63,837 nucleotides of DNA from an uncultured Lachnospiraceae bacterium (GTDB lineage: Bacteria > Bacillota > Clostridia > Lachnospirales > Lachnospiraceae). Positions 15,102-35,886 of this stretch are shown here, in pieces (within the stretch, counting starts at the first letter, position 1; the number at the start of each line of letters is the position of its first letter). Position numbers and translations under genes: made by a program. Where the stretch lies: assembly GCA_944384025.1 (NCBI GenBank), contig CALWRS010000010.1:1-63837 (forward strand). Reading direction: 5' to 3'. Under the pieces are notes generated by a model. It did not search any database, was not told the origin of the DNA, and saw only the letters and a program-made list of their open reading frames with translations.

Positions 15102-15906
15102 GTCCGTAGCCCCCTTTCTTATCCTCCACGATGACGCCGCTTTGCACGGAAATCACGCGTTTTTGCATACGGTCAACGATTTCACGGTTGTGTGTAACGA
15201 CAACGACCGTTGTTCCTCTGCGGTTAATTTCTTCTAGGAGATTCATAATCTCCCATGAATTTTGAGGATCCAAATTTCCGGTAGGCTCGTCGGCCAGCAA
15301 AATCATCGGGTTATTTACAAGCGCCCGCGCTAAGGCTACGCGCTGCTGCTCACCACCGGATAATTCGGTGGGGCGATTCTTATACTTTCCGCTTAGCCCA
15401 ACCAAATTCAGCATTTTGGAAACTTCCTTTGGGATACGGCGCTTTGGCGCGCCGACCACTTGCTGGGCAAAGGCGACGTTTTCATATACGTTTCGGTCTT
15501 GAAGCAGCCGGAAATCCTGAAAAACAATGCCGATGCTTCTGCGGTACTTGCACACTTGACGTTTGCGAAGCTTCGCCAAATCCTTTCCCGCTACATAAAT
15601 TCGCCCTTCCGTTGGGGAAATTTCCTTCATCATCAGGCGAATCATCGTAGATTTGCCGGACCCACTCGGCCCGACAATAAAAACGAATTCTCCCTTTTTT
15701 ACGCTAAAGGACACGTCCGTAAGCGCATGGTTCTCCGTAGTCCCATCATATTCCTTTGACACGTGTTCCAGAACAATGACGGGCGCATCCAGCGGATTTA
15801 TCGGTGCACGAGAAGAATTCTCGGAAACCGACTCCAAAGCCGGATCGCTTTCCTGTATTTTCTGTTCCTGCAATTCCGACGCAGGCACATTTTCCCAATC
15901 ACTCAT
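15094..15906 (-). CDS. ftsE: Cell division ATP-binding protein FtsE
   Basis: 270-residue ABC ATPase with Walker A GPSGSGKST, signature LSGGEQQRVALARAL, Walker B ILLADEPTGNLD and a switch histidine (VVTHN). Residues 1-40 are an acidic extension not found in most FtsE proteins, which are about 225-230 residues; the ATP-binding domain begins at IVLEHVSKEY. No well-placed ribosome site was found at an internal start, so the extension is probably translated. Confidence 0.94.
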   Translation of the reverse strand: MSDWENVPASELQEQKIQESDPALESVSENSSRAPINPLDAPVIVLEHVSKEYDGTTENHALTDVSFSVKKGEFVFIVGPSGSGKSTMIRLMMKEISPTEGRIYVAGKDLAKLRKRQVCKYRRSIGIVFQDFRLLQDRNVYENVAFAQQVVGAPKRRIPKEVSKMLNLVGLSGKYKNRPTELSGGEQQRVALARALVNNPMILLADEPTGNLDPQNSWEIMNLLEEINRRGTTVVVVTHNREIVDRMQKRVISVQSGVIVEDKKGGYGHE

Positions 15907-29291: not shown

Positions 29292-29990
29292 TTATTCTTC
29301 ACTCAGTGAAAAATACTTTCTATAAATCCGGTCGAGCTTTTTCCCCAAAGGGGCGGCAAGAAGAAAAAGAAACACAACGTTTGAGACTGCGTACAAAATT
29401 GTATAGGGAGCCGCTGCCAAAAGCGCCGCCAAATACCGCGACACAAAAAAACCGCCGTCCCACCACAAAACTGTCCAAACGTCCATCACAAGCGAATATG
29501 CCATTCCGGCTATCGCGCCGTAAAGAAGAAGTGCCGGGCGGTATCTTTTTAAATACGCGCGCAAAATTCCGGCAAAAAATCCGATAAGCCCCCACGTAAA
29601 CATCTGAAAAGGCGTCCAAGGCCCCTGCCCAAAATAAAAGTTCGAAACAAGCGCTCCCATTGCCCCGGTTAAAAATCCTATCTCCGGTCCAAAAGACAGC
29701 GCCGTCAGGATAACGATGGCGGTTACCGGCTTAAATCCAGGCAGCGCAGCAAATAAAACGCGCCCCAAAACCGTCATAGACGTCATAACCGCCAAAAGAA
29801 CAAGCTCTCCTACAAAGGCTTGCCTCTTCTCCAGCCGGAAGAAAAAGGCAGCACACCCAAGAAGCGCCAGAATTAGTGAGACAAAAGCGTAATACTTCCC
29901 GTCGAAAAAAAGCGTCCCAAGCACTGCAAAGAGCGCCGCAAAAAAGCAAAATACTGTGCGCAGAAGGCGTCGTTTGATTTTTTTTTGCAT
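29292..29990 (-). CDS. ECF transporter S component, probable cobalamin-specific (CbrT-like)
   Basis: 232-residue integral membrane protein with six hydrophobic helices and charged ends. The pattern GFKPVTAIVILTALSFGPEIGFLTGAMGAL is typical of ECF substrate-binding (S) subunits. The ATG at 29990 overlaps the stop of the EcfA gene by one base (TGATG), so the pair is translationally coupled. Because the operon starts with a cobalamin riboswitch, I infer that it binds vitamin B12, as does CbrT of Lactobacillus; sequence alone does not prove the substrate. Confidence 0.85.
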   Translation of the reverse strand: MQKKIKRRLLRTVFCFFAALFAVLGTLFFDGKYYAFVSLILALLGCAAFFFRLEKRQAFVGELVLLAVMTSMTVLGRVLFAALPGFKPVTAIVILTALSFGPEIGFLTGAMGALVSNFYFGQGPWTPFQMFTWGLIGFFAGILRAYLKRYRPALLLYGAIAGMAYSLVMDVWTVLWWDGGFFVSRYLAALLAAAPYTILYAVSNVVFLFLLAAPLGKKLDRIYRKYFSLSEE

Positions 29991-31693
29991 CACACAACTT
30001 CCTCTTTGTTCACTCTGCAAAGCGCTTCCACCTGTTCGCACGTGACCGTTCCCAAAAACAGCCCTTCGGAAATTCGCTTTGCCGAGGTCGTATAGAACCG
30101 GTTTTCGCCAAAGAACTCCTGCGGCGCTGCCTGCGCCAAAATTCCCCCGTCAAAAAACAGACCGCAGCGATTTGCAAACTGCGCGGCGAATTCCAAATCG
30201 TGCGTTACAATCAAAACGCTCGCCCCGTCTTTACAGTGCTTTTGCAAAACGCCGCCAAGCGCCTGCTTGGCATAAGCATCCAACCCCTTTGTCGGTTCGT
30301 CCAACAAAAGAATCCGGGGATTCGCCGCAAGAAGCTTTGTAAGAGCGCACTTTTGCTGCTCGCCGCCGCTTAAATCGTACGGATGGCGGTCTAAAATGTC
30401 CGGAATTTCCAGTTTCTTCCACAGATCGTTTGTTCGCGTTTCCCATTCTTTTTTAGAAAGGGAGCAAACGTTAAAATATTCTTCAAAATCTTCCCGAACA
30501 CTGTCTTTTGCAAAGATGGTTCGCACATCTTGCGGGAGGTAGGAAAGCACACCTTGGTACAGGGAATTGCTGCGATACGCCGCCTGCTTTTTCCCAAAAA
30601 TCCGCACATCGCCCCGATACGCGCGCCGAAGTCCCGCTGCCACGTGCAGCAGCGTCGTCTTCCCGGAGCCATTCCCTCCAAGAAGGCAATACACCTCCCC
30701 TTCTTGCAAAAGAAAATCCGCTCCGCAAAGGATATCCGGCGACGTTTTTTCATAGCGAAACCAAACGTTTTTGAGTGTCAGTGCCGGACTGCCTTTTATT
30801 TCTTCGCCGGACGGAAGCGTTCGCACCTTAGGATTTGGACAGATGTTCTTAAGAAACTGCCTGCCTTCCCGCACCGAAAGCGGACACGATGCGGACGAAT
30901 TTTTTGCAAGACTCCAGTACAGGCGTGCTGCACTTGGAAACGACAGCCGAAGCCGCCTAATAGCTTCCGGTAAAAGCGGTAGAGCGCCGTCCGCCATTTT
31001 TGCGCCGACTTTTGCCGGAGCATCCATACATACCAATTTCCCTTCAGACATAACGCCTATCGTATCGCAAAGCGAAAGGCATTCCTCTAAGCGGTGCTCC
31101 ACAAACAAAATGGTAAGCCCCAGTTCCCGGTGAAGCCTTGCAAGCATTGCCAAAAAATCGGCCGCCGCTATAGGGTCTAACTGCGACGTGGGCTCGTCCA
31201 GCAAAAGAATCCGAGGCCGCATAACCATTACCGAAGCCAAATTCAAAAGCTGCTTCTGCCCGCCGGAAAGCGTCGAAGTTTCCTGGCGAAACCACCGCTC
31301 AATTCCGAAAAACCCGGCAACTTCACCAACCCGCCGCCGGATACTTTCTCTGGAAAGCCCTAAGTTTTCCAGCCCGAACGCCAGCTCATGCCACACCCGA
31401 TCGGTAACAATTTGCTGTTCCGGATCCTGTGACACGTACCCAATTTCCTCCGCTGCCTCCCGCTCGGAAAGCTCATCAAGCGACCTGCCGCAATAAAAAA
31501 TTTCTCCCCGCAGGCTTCCTTTTGGGGCAAGCTCTTTTTTTAACAAACGAAGAAGCGTCGTCTTCCCGCAGCCCGAAGGGCCGCACAAAACGCAAAACTC
31601 TCCTTCCGCAATCGAAAAGCAAACGTCTTTTAACGCCGCACACTTCTCCTGCGGATAGGTAAAGCTCAAATCTTTGACACGTAATATTTCCAC
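29990..31693 (-). CDS. ECF transporter ATPase, two fused ABC domains
   Basis: 567 residues containing two complete ATP-binding domains. Domain 1: Walker A GPSGCGKTT, signature LSGGQKQLL, Walker B ILLLDEPTSQLD. Domain 2: GGNGSGKTT, LSGGEQQKCALTKLL, ILLLDEPTKGLD. It replaces the usual EcfA/EcfA' pair. GTG start at 31693 with AAGGAGAG upstream, overlapping the end of ecfT by 28 bases. Powers import together with the T and S proteins. Confidence 0.93.
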   Translation of the reverse strand: MEILRVKDLSFTYPQEKCAALKDVCFSIAEGEFCVLCGPSGCGKTTLLRLLKKELAPKGSLRGEIFYCGRSLDELSEREAAEEIGYVSQDPEQQIVTDRVWHELAFGLENLGLSRESIRRRVGEVAGFFGIERWFRQETSTLSGGQKQLLNLASVMVMRPRILLLDEPTSQLDPIAAADFLAMLARLHRELGLTILFVEHRLEECLSLCDTIGVMSEGKLVCMDAPAKVGAKMADGALPLLPEAIRRLRLSFPSAARLYWSLAKNSSASCPLSVREGRQFLKNICPNPKVRTLPSGEEIKGSPALTLKNVWFRYEKTSPDILCGADFLLQEGEVYCLLGGNGSGKTTLLHVAAGLRRAYRGDVRIFGKKQAAYRSNSLYQGVLSYLPQDVRTIFAKDSVREDFEEYFNVCSLSKKEWETRTNDLWKKLEIPDILDRHPYDLSGGEQQKCALTKLLAANPRILLLDEPTKGLDAYAKQALGGVLQKHCKDGASVLIVTHDLEFAAQFANRCGLFFDGGILAQAAPQEFFGENRFYTTSAKRISEGLFLGTVTCEQVEALCRVNKEEVV

Positions 31694-32544
31694 TTAAGAC
31701 TCTCCTTGATTTCTAAGAAGGAAGGCAAAAAAACAAGCAGGAGAAAAGCAGCTCCGGCAAGAAGCGGCGGCTGTTCCCAGAACCTTTGGGCCGCAGGGTA
31801 ATATGCGTACCGCAATTCTCCTCGCGCAAAGGAAATTGCAACAAAAAGCGCCGTCATTCCGGAAAAAATCAGAAAAATACTGTCGCTGCGCCGCCAAACG
31901 TAAAGATGAAAATTTGTCCGGTGCGCCAGCCCGTATCCCCGCGCCTTCATTGCGGCAGCAGTTTCCATTGCGTACGAAAGCGACCAGTCAAAAAGCGCCG
32001 AACAGGTTCGGAAAAGAGAATGTGCCCGCTCGGAAATACTTCCCGATCCGAAAAGCCCCATCGCCTTTTGCGCCTGCGAAATCTCGCGCCGCTTTTGCAA
32101 AAAAAGAGGAACAAAGCGAAGCGTCAGCGAAAAGACCAGAGATACGCGCGGAAGCGGCCGCCCAATCAAATACATAAGTTTATCGCCGGTAAACAAAATT
32201 TGAAAGCACCGGCACCAAAGCAGTACGCTTGCCGTCATGCAGCCAATTGCCGCGCCGTAAAAAACTGCCTCAAGCGTCACCGGGTTTCCGTTTATAAAAA
32301 ACAGCGGTGTAACGCCATTATGCGAAAAAAGCGGATTCGTAAGCGTTACCGCCAAAGCTAACAAAACAGAAAACAAAAGCTGTGAGAAAAACTGCTTTCG
32401 GGATTCTAGGGCGGCGAAAAGCAAAATAGCTCCGACAAACGACTCCGCTAGAAGCACCGGATGCCGCACAAACATGGCAGTTAAAAGCACTGCCGCAAAA
32501 TAGAAAAAAAGAACAGCCGGATGATAACCTGCAAGCGCTTTCAT
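31666..32544 (-). CDS. ecfT: ECF transporter T component (EcfT/CbiQ family)
   Basis: 292-residue membrane protein with about five helices and the coupling motif region with Ala-Arg-Gly (MKARGYGL, about residues 208-215), which docks on the ATPase. The start is at 32544, forming an ATGA overlap with the stop of the preceding gene; the longer frame to 32589 lies inside that gene. Links S component and ATPase. A dedicated, not shared, ECF module is implied by having S, T and A in one operon. Confidence 0.9.
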   Translation of the reverse strand: MKALAGYHPAVLFFYFAAVLLTAMFVRHPVLLAESFVGAILLFAALESRKQFFSQLLFSVLLALAVTLTNPLFSHNGVTPLFFINGNPVTLEAVFYGAAIGCMTASVLLWCRCFQILFTGDKLMYLIGRPLPRVSLVFSLTLRFVPLFLQKRREISQAQKAMGLFGSGSISERAHSLFRTCSALFDWSLSYAMETAAAMKARGYGLAHRTNFHLYVWRRSDSIFLIFSGMTALFVAISFARGELRYAYYPAAQRFWEQPPLLAGAAFLLLVFLPSFLEIKESLKWKYYVSKI

Positions 32545-34343
32545 TGTCCTTCTATGTCCTTTCCCATTTCGCATGTGTAAAACCAGCAAATCTCATCTCC
32601 TGCTTTCGGTTCGTACAAAGAGCAGCCAACGTCGGCGGCTGTTCCGTTTACCAAAAACATCCAGCCCGAAAGCGGGCCGCAGGAGAACTCATATAAATAT
32701 TGGATTCCTTGTACGTATACGCTTCCGAAGCGATTGTCCGCTGCCCCTTGGTACTCCATGGGGATACGGTACTGCTGCGCGGCGCGCTGCAAAACCGTAA
32801 ACGCTGTATCGCCCGCGAAAAGCGGAATCTCCGTCTCTTTCAGGATATATCCGTCTGCGGGAAGGTAATCGCCCGCTTTTAAGCTTTCGTCCAGCTCGTC
32901 GTAGTGCGCGTAAATACTGTCGCAGCGGATAATAAGTGTAACCGTTTCCCCGGTTTGAGAAGTTTCCTGCGGGTTGGTTTCGTAATACTCATCAACGGAC
33001 TGGATTTTTACGCATTGCAAAAGCAAAAGAAGCAGGGATGCGAAAAAACAAAAAAGCAGCCACTTCCTGCCCTTGCCTTTATAAAAAAACAGCAAAACAG
33101 CGCTAAGAACGGCCACACCGCCCGTAAAAAGGCGAAGTATATTTTTTAGGTCAATACTCGAAGAGCTTCCCTTCTCTATTAAGGGCAATGCCCCTGGTAA
33201 AGTCGATGCCCCCGGCGAGGGCGATGCCTCCGGCGAGGGTGTTGGCGCATCCGTCTGCTTATCCGTAAGGTCGTAGAGCCGCCCTTTTCCCTGCTCCATG
33301 CGCCACAGCGCCGCTAGCGTATAAAGCGCCTGATCGGACGCCATGGAATTGGACTTGCCGTCCTTTTCATACGCAAAGCCGCCGTCTTCCTGCCGAAAAG
33401 AAAGAAAAGCGTCCGTTATTGTACATCCGTTTTTTGTAAACGCCGCCTCTGTCTGCGGAACTCTTCCCAAAGAGCAAAGTGCAATCAAAACCTGACAGGT
33501 GGAATTTACATTTGACGTTCCGTAAGACGCAAACGACCCGTCCGCAAGCTGCTGCGTAGAGAGCCATAAAAGAGCACCATCCACCGCTTCCCGAACCGTG
33601 CGCGTCTCTTCGCTCTTTGTCGATTTGGAGAGGAAGGAATACGCTTCGCTGCTGCTATAATACGGGGAAAGCGCCTGAATCGCCATTGCCGTAACGTCCA
33701 CTTCCGATACGCCTGTGCCAAGAGGAAATCCCCCGTCCGCGAGCTGATACGACAAAATTTGCTCGATCATATCTTCCCGCGTGCTGCAAGCGTCTTCCGG
33801 CACGGAAAAATCTCCGGCATCCAGCGTTAAAAGCGCCCAAATCCAGCCGTTAACTCCCTGCGCTCCAAGCGACGTCGTTTTTCCGCGGTAATACGTACCG
33901 TCGGCAATCAAATTAATCGGATTGCCTGATGAATCCACGCCGAAGTTCTCCGCATCTCCCCCGCAGGCAAGTACCGTAAGCGCAATTCGGTGCCACTCTG
34001 TTGCCTTTACCGGGGAGAGACCTCCCTGCGTTTTGTACTGCTCCTGCACATAACATTGCAATTCTTCCAAATACGCTTCCTGCCGGTCCGAAATTTCCAA
34101 ACGGCTTAGCGCAAATACGTACAAGTCCCCGGCAGTGCTTCCCGCAAGCAAAAGCTGCTCGTCGCATATCCGGTTTTCCTTTTGCGTCTCGCCGTATGTA
34201 GAAAGCTTCCAAGAAATAACGTCCTGCGCCGTCTCCATCCACCGGGCAGCGGAGGCGTCTTCCGCCTCCGCCAAACCGTCTGCCTTTCGTATAACTGCCG
34301 CCAGCAGTACAATAAGAAAAGCATAAAAAATTCTTTTTTTCAT
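32541..34343 (-). CDS. Intrinsic factor/transcobalamin-like surface protein: alpha-barrel, TM hairpin, DUF4430
   Basis: 600 residues. Signal peptide (1-23). Residues about 30-355 form a helical repeat region with terpene-cyclase/prenyltransferase-type turns (LADGGF at 201, LADGSF at 267, QEDGGF at 318) and VDVTAMAIQAL, an alpha6/alpha6-barrel. A Pro/Ser spacer (366-390) leads to two transmembrane helices (about 403-421 and 427-444) and then a DUF4430 beta-domain (about 465-592; GPLSGWMFLVNG, YEPKAGDEICW). Alpha-barrel plus this beta-domain is the domain pair of animal intrinsic factor and transcobalamin, which hold B12 between the domains. The TM hairpin would leave both domains outside the cell. 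Coupled by ATGA to both neighbours in the cobalamin-riboswitch operon. B12 capture is inference, well supported by context. Confidence 0.85.
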   Translation of the reverse strand: MKKRIFYAFLIVLLAAVIRKADGLAEAEDASAARWMETAQDVISWKLSTYGETQKENRICDEQLLLAGSTAGDLYVFALSRLEISDRQEAYLEELQCYVQEQYKTQGGLSPVKATEWHRIALTVLACGGDAENFGVDSSGNPINLIADGTYYRGKTTSLGAQGVNGWIWALLTLDAGDFSVPEDACSTREDMIEQILSYQLADGGFPLGTGVSEVDVTAMAIQALSPYYSSSEAYSFLSKSTKSEETRTVREAVDGALLWLSTQQLADGSFASYGTSNVNSTCQVLIALCSLGRVPQTEAAFTKNGCTITDAFLSFRQEDGGFAYEKDGKSNSMASDQALYTLAALWRMEQGKGRLYDLTDKQTDAPTPSPEASPSPGASTLPGALPLIEKGSSSSIDLKNILRLFTGGVAVLSAVLLFFYKGKGRKWLLFCFFASLLLLLLQCVKIQSVDEYYETNPQETSQTGETVTLIIRCDSIYAHYDELDESLKAGDYLPADGYILKETEIPLFAGDTAFTVLQRAAQQYRIPMEYQGAADNRFGSVYVQGIQYLYEFSCGPLSGWMFLVNGTAADVGCSLYEPKAGDEICWFYTCEMGKDIEGQ

Positions 34344-35350
34344 TGTCTTTTTGTCTTTGCGCCTCTTAGGGCAACAACCACCGCCGCAGCAGGCAAGGCA
34401 AGAAGCACAAACAGTAAGGAAACATCTCCCGTCTCCGGCGTATCCTCCGCCGTTCCCGAAGGCTTCCCTGTAGGTACAGGCGTTTCCTCTGCCCCAGTTT
34501 GCATTTCGTCAATTGCGTTTTCCAAAAGCTCTTTTGCTTCCTTCACTGCTTCCTGCGAAGCGTCTACAGTTGTCCCAACCGCTAAGGCAGCCGCATAAGC
34601 AGCAGCTACCGCCGCATCCGCCTGCAACTGCTGCGAGCCAGAGACTTGCGCTAAAAGCTTGCAAAGGTCTGTTTTATCCGCTGTAGGGTAAAAATCGCCC
34701 CAGCCTGCGCCAATGTCCATTCCCCATGCCATGGAATACTGTACGCGCAATACATCGCCGTCTGCTGCTAAGACAGCAGAACAATAATCGCTTGGAAAGA
34801 CGTTGTTGACCGACGTCATCCAGCCCGAAAGCGGACAATAATCAAATTCGCTAAGCGTATTTTCTCCTTTTGTCCAGCCATCGTTCAAATCCTCGACAGT
34901 TTGAACGTCCATTTCGTAATAGCCCTCCAGCGTGGGCTGAATATTTTGCAAAATAATTGCCGGCATCTCTTCTCCAAGCCGTTTCGGAGGCTGGCACTTC
35001 GCACCGGCTGAAACCGCCTGCGCTGCGCCGCCCGGCAAAACACCGCCCGGACCAATTGCCGACAAATAAAATCCATCTGTCAGTGTGCCGCTTGCCTGAT
35101 AGGAAAGTCCGTTTTCCGTTAACGCCCGGTCAATGACCTGCGCCGCCGTCTCTCCTTCATAAAAGGGAACCGCAGTAGGCACAAGCAAATAACCGTAGCC
35201 AATCGAGCCTGCTTCTACGCTGACAATAACATAACCATCTGGCTGCGACTTCTTTTCCGAATCGGAGGCAAACGCAGCACTTGTCAGGATTCCGCAAATG
35301 AGCGCTGCCATACACAGCCATGCGGGAAGCCTTTTTCTGAATTGTTTCAT
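34340..35350 (-). CDS. Cell-wall-anchored DUF4430 protein, probable cobalamin-binding
   Basis: 336 residues: signal peptide (1-29), a DUF4430-type domain (about 40-215; ...CPLSGWMTSVNN, DGDVLRVQYSM), an Ala-rich helical stalk (about 228-285), a Thr/Pro spacer, and a sorting signal (TPETGD at 304-309, hydrophobic 311-328, basic KTKRQ end). It should be fixed to peptidoglycan by a sortase. The DUF4430 fold resembles the C-terminal domain of transcobalamins, and the gene is second in the B12-riboswitch operon, so I infer that it gathers cobalamin at the surface and hands it to the ECF transporter. Four-base overlap with the next gene. Confidence 0.82.
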   Translation of the reverse strand: MKQFRKRLPAWLCMAALICGILTSAAFASDSEKKSQPDGYVIVSVEAGSIGYGYLLVPTAVPFYEGETAAQVIDRALTENGLSYQASGTLTDGFYLSAIGPGGVLPGGAAQAVSAGAKCQPPKRLGEEMPAIILQNIQPTLEGYYEMDVQTVEDLNDGWTKGENTLSEFDYCPLSGWMTSVNNVFPSDYCSAVLAADGDVLRVQYSMAWGMDIGAGWGDFYPTADKTDLCKLLAQVSGSQQLQADAAVAAAYAAALAVGTTVDASQEAVKEAKELLENAIDEMQTGAEETPVPTGKPSGTAEDTPETGDVSLLFVLLALPAAAVVVALRGAKTKRQ

Positions 35351-35404
35351 GGTGAGATTCTCCTTTGCGCGCTGTGACGCGCGGGTCTAAACGGACACAC
35401 ATAT

Positions 35405-35671
35405 TTATCCGTTTTTGGCAACCCTTCGTTTCACCTTCGCACGAATCCTCTTCTCTTTGCGTCTGGCAAGCCTGGCCATACGGGCTTCGCTGACCTCTTT
35501 TAGACCAGCCGCTTCAAGCGCCCTTGGCCACGGCCCCAGATGAGCCTTCACCAAAATCACTTCCTCTTGCGTAAAATCCGTTTTCTTCGGAATCCGCGAG
35601 AGCTCCTCCGCTTTTTTTTGCAGCAGCTCAACTGCGCGCAATACTGCCGCTGTTTTTGCATCGTCTTGCAT
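35405..35671 (-). CDS. Small basic protein with homing-endonuclease-type repeat
   Basis: 88 residues from ATG 35671. One helical repeat of the kind seen in HNH-endonuclease-associated proteins (AVELLQKKAEELSRIPKKTDF...LGPWPRALEAAGL) is followed by a very basic tail (RRKEKRIRAKVKRR). No nuclease residues. The frame is open to 35773 but that stretch is the cobalamin riboswitch, so the short form is right. It is the first gene behind the riboswitch; a role in DNA or RNA binding or in regulation of the operon is only a guess. Confidence 0.75.
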   Translation of the reverse strand: MQDDAKTAAVLRAVELLQKKAEELSRIPKKTDFTQEEVILVKAHLGPWPRALEAAGLKEVSEARMARLARRKEKRIRAKVKRRVAKNG

Positions 35672-35721
35672 GATTTTCACTCTTTTCCCTTCCAAACGCC
35701 CAAGGAAGCTTCGTGCGTTGA

Positions 35722-35847
35722 ATTCAGATACGATGCGTGGCGAGTATTCCGACTGATGAGAAAGCTCAAACACGGTAATGGTGGTTGCACCGGATTCGCA
35801 CCGGATTTCCCTCTAATCCTTTTTCAAGGAGCTCCACATCCTGAAAT
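35722..35847 (-). ncRNA. Cobalamin riboswitch
   Basis: Minus-strand leader with the core signatures: closing helix TTCAGGATGTGG pairing with CCACGCAT...CTGAA, then GAGGGAAATCCGGTG and GCGAATCCGGTGC, and the B12 box AGTCGGAATACTCGCC. Directly downstream (35689-35708) CTTCC/GGAAG can form a hairpin covering the purine-rich ribosome site of the first gene, so control of translation initiation is likely. No intrinsic terminator was found in the leader. Predicted to lower expression when cobalamin is plentiful. Confidence 0.9.
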
Positions 35848-35857
35848 CAACAGAAAG

Positions 35858-35886
35858 ATTATATCCGACTTTTTCTAAAAATGCAA
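35858..35886 (-). promoter_or_regulatory. Promoter of the cobalamin uptake operon
   Basis: Minus-strand TTGCAT (35881-35886), 17-base spacer, TATAAT (35858-35863). The predicted start of transcription is a few bases before the riboswitch closing helix. Confidence 0.75.

Follow-up and report, generated by a model that had tools for sequence, protein, structure and literature searches.

A cobalamin riboswitch operon for transcobalamin-like surface proteins and a CbrT-type ECF transporter in an uncultured Lachnospiraceae bacterium

Introduction

Several systems for the uptake of cobalamin (vitamin B12) have been described. Riboswitch control has been predicted for the CbrUVT importers of gut bacteria. 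The CbrT-type transport of B12 by energy-coupling factor (ECF) transporters was predicted from genomes for these importers, B12 transport in numerous gut genomes is regarded as an open problem, and DUF4430 does not occur in the text of that work (PMC6593275). The ECF-CbrT transporter of Lactobacillus delbrueckii (6FNP) was reported to transport cobalamin and cobinamide, and the accessible part of that report describes no extracellular receptor (PMC5997447). Import by ECF-CbrT is thus already known. Here, we describe a locus from a stretch of 63,837 nucleotides (contig CALWRS010000010.1, assembly GCA_944384025.1; hereafter the window) of an uncultured Lachnospiraceae bacterium, which also encodes a CbrT-like S component together with EcfT and EcfA. 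Unlike in the described system, the genes for T, a fused A and S are located in one riboswitch operon with genes for surface proteins.

The B12 lipoprotein receptor of Bacteroides has another fold than the surface proteins of this operon. The surface B12-binding lipoproteins of Bacteroides are similar to them in that a B12-binding surface protein stands ahead of an importer, and they belong to a Gram-negative system (PMC6143338). A likeness also exists to the animal carriers transcobalamin, haptocorrin and intrinsic factor, in which an alpha/alpha barrel is followed by a beta domain and which were the top matches in our fold searches. In contrast to the animal carriers, a membrane hairpin lies between both domains in the protein described here, and in some relatives the domains are encoded by two separate genes. 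That DUF4430 is found in the C-terminus of the vertebrate carriers is already in print (PMC4350170). For DUF4430 or transcobalamin-like proteins in bacterial B12 uptake, no paper was found in searches of an open-access library, subscription papers and preprints being outside the search.

Organisation of the operon

On the minus strand of the window, a cobalamin riboswitch is followed by six packed genes, which encode an HNH_repeat protein, a DUF4430 surface protein, a barrel protein with a DUF4430 domain, EcfT, a double EcfA and an S component. The genes of both DUF4430 proteins overlap the next gene by ATGA and those of EcfA and the S component by TGATG. The genes, their order, strand and overlaps agree with a first-pass annotation of the window, to which a 28-nt overlap between the EcfT and EcfA genes can be added. 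Most probably, the locus encodes a B12 importer that is repressed through the riboswitch and consists of an ECF-CbrT transporter supplied by transcobalamin-like surface receptors. The gene content, the identity of the riboswitch with its covariation, the similarity of the predicted folds, the homology of the S component and the recurrence of the gene set carry this interpretation.

The ECF transporter

The S component (29292..29990) is matched by Pfam family PF07155 with 42.7 bits at a cut-off of 26.7. The gene of the fused double EcfA ATPase (29990..31693) has a GTG start, and ABC_tran was matched in two stretches of the protein, of which the best NCBIfam match was ECF_ATPase_1 (305 at a cut-off of 315). 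EcfT (31666..32544) is a member of the CbiQ family (PF02361, 35.3 bits at a cut-off of 25). S, T and two A ATPase domains are therefore encoded together, as in an ECF transporter. When the S component was compared with solved sequences using phmmer, a single match, 6fnp_A, was obtained (E 6.5e-10). A profile of 31 rows again found 6fnp_A (E 7.4e-22) in the Protein Data Bank (PDB), followed by 4hzu_S (E 8.3e-4), which we take to be an HmpT structure, and no other entry at E <= 0.1. The chain 6fnp_A was taken as CbrT because of its length of 182 amino acids and because of the match. Both searches thus support the CbrT-type S component proposed in the first-pass annotation, since the protein is closer by sequence to CbrT than to the other solved S components, and the transporter of the operon would be expected to import cobalamin. 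Among the matches listed from named genomes, the closest relative of the S component (65% identity) is encoded by a Lachnospiraceae metagenome-assembled genome, in the locus termed L134.

The transcobalamin-like surface proteins

The barrel protein (32541..34343; 600 amino acids) comprises an alpha/alpha barrel (residues ~30-360), a two-helix hairpin (residues 399-444) and a DUF4430 domain (residues 511-590), which was matched by PF14478 with 56.4 bits at a cut-off of 23.8. Its AlphaFold2 model, built from 56 rows, reached a predicted local distance difference test (pLDDT) score of 87.8 and places helices at residues 399-420 and 425-444 between the domains, and the protein is probably tethered to the membrane by this hairpin. 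A Foldseek search of the model against 350,542 PDB chains revealed that the top 15 matches are all transcobalamins, haptocorrins or intrinsic factors, with a best E value of 4.8e-9 and alignments of 552-592 columns at 11-14% identity. Moreover, the beta domain of human transcobalamin alone could be superposed on the model with a TMt of 0.75 and a root-mean-square deviation (rmsd) of 3.3 Å. The protein is thus predicted to have both parts of the transcobalamin/intrinsic factor fold, an alpha/alpha barrel and a beta domain, with a differing domain placement. The description 'built from animal-like parts', which had been given to the surface proteins earlier, is appropriate for the fold. However, it does not extend to the sequence, because the barrel matches Prenyltrans in Pfam (26.8 bits at a cut-off of 26.5), and a search of Pfam-A gave no match to a cobalamin-binding (carrier) family at E <= 0.01.

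The second surface protein (34340..35350; 336 amino acids) is a secreted DUF4430 protein, which is similar to the transcobalamin beta domain and has an anchor-like C-terminal signal. It scored 18.4 bits with PF14478, which is below the cut-off of 23.8. However, its homology to DUF4430 proteins was confirmed by profile comparison using hhalign (E 2.5e-36), and an insertion splits its DUF4430 domain. The first 18 rows of the fold search with its predicted model, which was run against the same set of PDB chains, consist of 16 transcobalamin, haptocorrin and intrinsic factor chains and two chains of 3u7z. A profile of its relatives placed the beta domain of transcobalamin-2 first among the PDB sequences (E 0.0033). 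The GFYL loop of the wall protein aligns with the loop of human transcobalamin that contains L358, a residue whose backbone forms a hydrogen bond to the phosphate of B12 (PMC5599065). The tyrosine of GFYL falls on transcobalamin residue 362, as counted along the printed alignment, the numbering of which agrees with His345, Tyr352 and L358 of the cited work (PMC5599065). Structure prediction thus bears out the transcobalamin-like fold claimed in the first-pass annotation, strongly for the barrel protein and weakly for the wall protein, and both surface proteins may bind B12.

The C-terminus of the wall protein consists of TPETG, a hydrophobic stretch and a basic tail and looks like a sortase signal. 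TPETG is conserved in L134, and a sortase is encoded in the genome. Residues 220-290, which follow the DUF4430 domain, form a confidently modelled helical segment without a Pfam match, perhaps a spacer across the wall.

The cobalamin riboswitch

The aptamer upstream of the operon (35722..35851, minus strand) is a short, divergent form of the cobalamin riboswitch RF00174. It was matched at 35851-35722 with 31.5 bits, the gathering score of the family being 31.5 (E 3.2e-4 in a search of the window), and no further match was found in the 1.92-Mb assembly. Due to this marginal score, independent support was sought. L134 has an RF00174 match of 32.3 bits in the corresponding position ahead of the same first gene, and the same operon follows, with the barrel and DUF4430 in two frames. 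The alignment of both leaders gave 44 jointly predicted pairs, of which seven are changed on both sides and none is broken, in a structure that was fitted to these same two leaders and not compared pair by pair with the Rfam structure. In a hand-set register of one stem, two of seven pairs are lost in L134. Since the match recurs at the same place and seven pairs are compensated with none broken, a chance match is unlikely, and the covariance model and the two-leader covariation both agree with the cobalamin riboswitch named in the first-pass annotation. Folding the leader of the window alone gave no signal above shuffled sequences.

A hairpin downstream of the aptamer (35686..35707, minus strand), in which UUCCUU pairs with AAGGGA, part of the first gene's Shine-Dalgarno region, is a possible translational expression platform. 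Its six pairs are unchanged between the window and L134, and the pairing would fit translational control. The window sequence alone folds no better here than shuffled sequences, and a shorter stretch prefers another fold.

Thirteen low- and middle-scoring aptamers before DUF4430/barrel genes, including that of the window, have a common core, and several of them are equally short. In the alignment of aptamers from DUF4430/barrel loci (A5), several short, divergent members with low RF00174 scores have a core resembling CAUUACUGUAUUUG. Such aptamers might differ in their ligand preference. A regular expression that we wrote for divergent cobalamin aptamers was discarded, as it recovered 0 of 39 loci in which cobalamin aptamers are known.

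Recurrence in the family and the phylum

The co-occurrence of cobalamin riboswitches, DUF4430 and ECF genes in other Lachnospiraceae, for which a survey had been suggested, was found to recur in the family and also in the phylum. PF14478 was sought in a family sample of 200 genomes, including that of the window, and 95 of them were positive, with 146 domains. All 95 genomes were scanned for RF00174 with a permissive filter at E <= 0.001, which gave 137 matches in 78 genomes, four of them below the gathering score. A cobalamin riboswitch on the same strand lies at most 10 kb upstream of 73 of the 146 domains (55 of the 95 genomes) and within 1 kb of 39 domains, whereas about 0.46 domains would be expected from uniform placement. 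The number of linked domains was 72 of 146 when the nearest riboswitch on any strand was considered, and 69 (52 genomes) without the four sub-gathering riboswitches. In the phylum sample, PF14478 was present in 121 of 398 genomes. Forty genomes, each from a different family, were taken for the riboswitch test, of which 35 gave DUF4430 rows and five dropped out. Among the matches listed, at least 38 of 52 domains in at least 24 of 35 genomes showed the riboswitch arrangement, compared with about 0.43 domains expected. The linkage between DUF4430 and the cobalamin riboswitch is thus general.

In 20 gene maps from the phylum, the order is often riboswitch, barrel/DUF4430, DUF4430, EcfT, EcfA and S. 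Genes for S, T and A occur together in 17 of these 20 stretches and in 42 of 80 fetched family stretches, which had been chosen by taking the best-scoring DUF4430 places first; in 23 of the 42, a riboswitch is present too. The association also holds when the S gene is the starting point. The S profile detected at least 593 relatives in genome contigs, and among the best 80 of these, DUF4430/barrel genes on the same strand were found at 64 loci (35 of 37 if only stretches no shorter than 18 kb are counted). Fourteen S loci were compared with Rfam, and a cobalamin riboswitch precedes the operon in six of them (Kurthia sp. 3B1D, K. sibirica, Viridibacillus soli, L134, L137 and L145); in L205, it is located just after the S gene.

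The gene set varies among the relatives. The barrel and DUF4430 are encoded by separate adjacent genes in six loci (L054, L064, L074, L046, L055 and L094), where the split lies near the membrane hairpin. A small form, represented by L084 and L092, has a riboswitch and an S-like gene together with a single small DUF4430 protein, and neither T nor A nearby. Judging from its LTTGC motif, the small DUF4430 protein of L092 is a lipoprotein, and that of L084 is anchored in the membrane. The L092 protein is a homologue (E 7.3e-13) of the single-domain protein 3u7z (RUMGNA_00854) of Ruminococcus gnavus. The S-like protein of L092 has no Pfam match and no match to the S profile, and 6fnp_A is its only PDB match at E <= 1 (E 0.0073).

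Surface proteins of these loci can be very long, such as a protein of 2717 amino acids with fn3, GLUG, purple-acid-phosphatase-N and DUF4430 domains (L042:1385-9538), and one protein of L114 unites a barrel of the squalene-cyclase type with DUF4430 and S-layer domains. L119 (genome G222) has two cobalamin riboswitches, at 15514 and 10048, each followed by DUF4430 genes, and the second precedes the gene of a barrel/DUF4430 protein of 1378 amino acids. DUF4430 was also matched in the control genomes of Lactococcus lactis and Methanosarcina acetivorans, the latter of which indicates that the domain reaches the archaea.

Mechanism and alternative interpretations

At low intracellular cobalamin, the riboswitch would permit expression of the operon. 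The direction of regulation would be that of an off-switch, by analogy with the reported behaviour of this riboswitch class (PMC11477304). The hairpin of the barrel protein would fix it to the outside of the membrane, and its barrel and DUF4430 domain may close on B12 like the domains of transcobalamin. The alpha and beta domains of the human protein, when separated, require cobalamin for their assembly (PMC5599065). The second DUF4430 protein, probably anchored in the wall, could serve as an outer scavenger or relay. The captured corrinoid would then be handed over from the receptors to the CbrT-like S component, which would topple into the EcfT-EcfA module for ATP-driven import. The imported B12 would probably serve MetH, a B12-dependent form of which is encoded in the genome, as read from the domains of locus L132. 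A second B12-binding match in the genome lies below the cut-off; its frame reads by eye as IMP dehydrogenase, and the candidate was dropped.

Several observations weigh against such a receptor-fed importer. The riboswitch scores exactly at the Rfam threshold. The two domains of the barrel protein cannot be jointly superposed on transcobalamin, and the overall rmsd of 14.5-16.8 Å means that they are either arranged differently or not fixed relative to each other by the model. Moreover, the barrel fold is present in enzymes too, sequence profiles of the barrel matched squalene-hopene cyclases and not transcobalamin, and a profile of DUF4430 only (A4) did not find transcobalamin among the PDB sequences. 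The model of the wall protein is mediocre (pLDDT 73.8), and its fold matches are weak, with a best E value of 1.7e-3 and none at E <= 0.001. No cobalamin riboswitch was detected within 10 kb upstream of DUF4430 in 40 of the 95 family genomes. RF00174 is absent from 41 of the fetched family loci, and when the whole of Rfam was applied to 17 of these, no other riboswitch was found before the operon; the scan gave two tRNAs and one lysine riboswitch, which lies ~5 kb beyond the S gene in L055. In the sample's genome of the same genus (G189), RF00174 was not matched at all, its locus L070 showing no riboswitch even at E <= 5, and the EcfT, EcfA and S genes precede the barrel/DUF4430 gene there. 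With no riboswitch and another gene order in L070, regulation seems to differ within the genus. Seven of the 14 S loci given to Rfam showed no cobalamin riboswitch (L140, L141, L142, L148, L150, L180 and L204); in L150 and L204, as in L205, the operon reaches or nears the edge of the stretch. A DUF4430/barrel gene was not detected at 16 of the 80 S loci, 13 of which are in stretches shorter than 17 kb. In an E. coli test strain, ECF-CbrT is sufficient for the import of B12 (PMC5997447), and therefore receptors are not strictly needed. In favour of the importer, CbiD was not matched in the genome of the window, in a search for this one family in an assembly that is 96.7% complete. The presence of MetH and the lack of a CbiD match fit, without proving it, a dependence on imported B12.

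Among the alternatives, the uptake of cobinamide or other cobamides, instead of or besides cobalamin, survives best. It is compatible with the receptor-fed importer, and we regard it as possible, if rather doubtful. The divergent form of the aptamer points in this direction, as do the transport of cobinamide by CbrT (PMC5997447) and the binding of cobinamide by the human beta domain (PMC5599065). However, the riboswitch is of the B12 class, and MetH requires a complete cobamide. It is unlikely that the ECF transporter imports B12 while the DUF4430/barrel proteins have a general role at the surface or in adhesion, or recognise another ligand, and share the operon only loosely. Such a role could be suggested by the two relatives with fn3, GLUG, purple-acid-phosphatase-N or S-layer domains, by the likeness of the barrel to Prenyltrans and the squalene-hopene cyclases, by 3u7z, which was deposited as a putative metal-binding protein, and by the S loci at which no DUF4430/barrel gene was detected. 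In contrast, both proteins found transcobalamins first among all chains searched, DUF4430 is associated with the cobalamin riboswitch as well as with the CbrT-like S gene, and the small units of L084 and L092 are made up of a riboswitch, the gene of a small DUF4430 protein and an S-like gene. That the S component carries another vitamin, as the riboflavin transporter in the name of its Pfam family (ECF-ribofla_trS) might imply, is very improbable and was rejected, because the NCBIfam riboflavin equivalog gave 17.8 at a cut-off of 99, the profile favours 6fnp_A over 4hzu_S by far, the riboswitch is that of cobalamin, and the search of the window gave no FMN riboswitch above threshold.

Further features of the locus

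The first gene of the operon encodes a small basic protein, as had been annotated before, which could be assigned to the Pfam family HNH_repeat (PF18780, 40.6 bits). It is located at 35405..35671 and has 88 amino acids from the ATG, with an alternative GTG start at 35680. An HNH_repeat gene directly follows the riboswitch in seven of the 40 riboswitch-DUF4430 units among the 80 fetched family loci (L034, L038, L060, L061, L063, L068 and L083), and it is also the first gene after the riboswitch in L134. The protein of L038 has three repeats. HNH_repeat is a homing-endonuclease-associated repeat, here situated in an operon with a B12 riboswitch.

A putative promoter (35858..35886, minus strand) was recognised by eye. 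It has a perfect -10 region (TATAAT, 35863-35858), a poor -35 region (TTGCAT, 35886-35881) and a spacer of 17 nt, and a pattern-based scan reported no promoter at this position. Of the 'one promoter' that had been claimed before, the TATAAT is thus visible, and the -35 region is weak; a single promoter before the operon is plausible but weakly supported. According to Pfam, the operon is preceded by a gene of the VanZ family and followed by a malic-enzyme gene. The stretch that separates the latter from the S gene contains a good promoter-like site on the minus strand (TTTACA-17-TATAAT, 29288-29260; 11 of 12 positions matched), which suggests that the malic-enzyme gene is transcribed apart from the operon.

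Implications

The operon provides a concrete and testable gene set for the capture of B12 by Gram-positive gut and soil bacteria, and it suggests a function for DUF4430 in the many genomes of the phylum sample that encode this domain. Moreover, it connects bacteria with the fold known from the human B12 carriers. A more far-reaching proposition, whose chances we judge to be even, is that surface receptors homologous to the animal B12 carriers feed ECF transporters in a system that is widespread in the Bacillota. The halves of the receptor, separate genes in some species, would close around B12, and the two-domain carrier of animals would either derive from a bacterial surface receptor or have a common ancestor with it. 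The locus also suggests that ECF transporters, which to our knowledge are otherwise described as independent of binding proteins, can be equipped with extracellular receptors of their own. The gene sets recurring in related bacteria suggest a common way of catching and importing B12.

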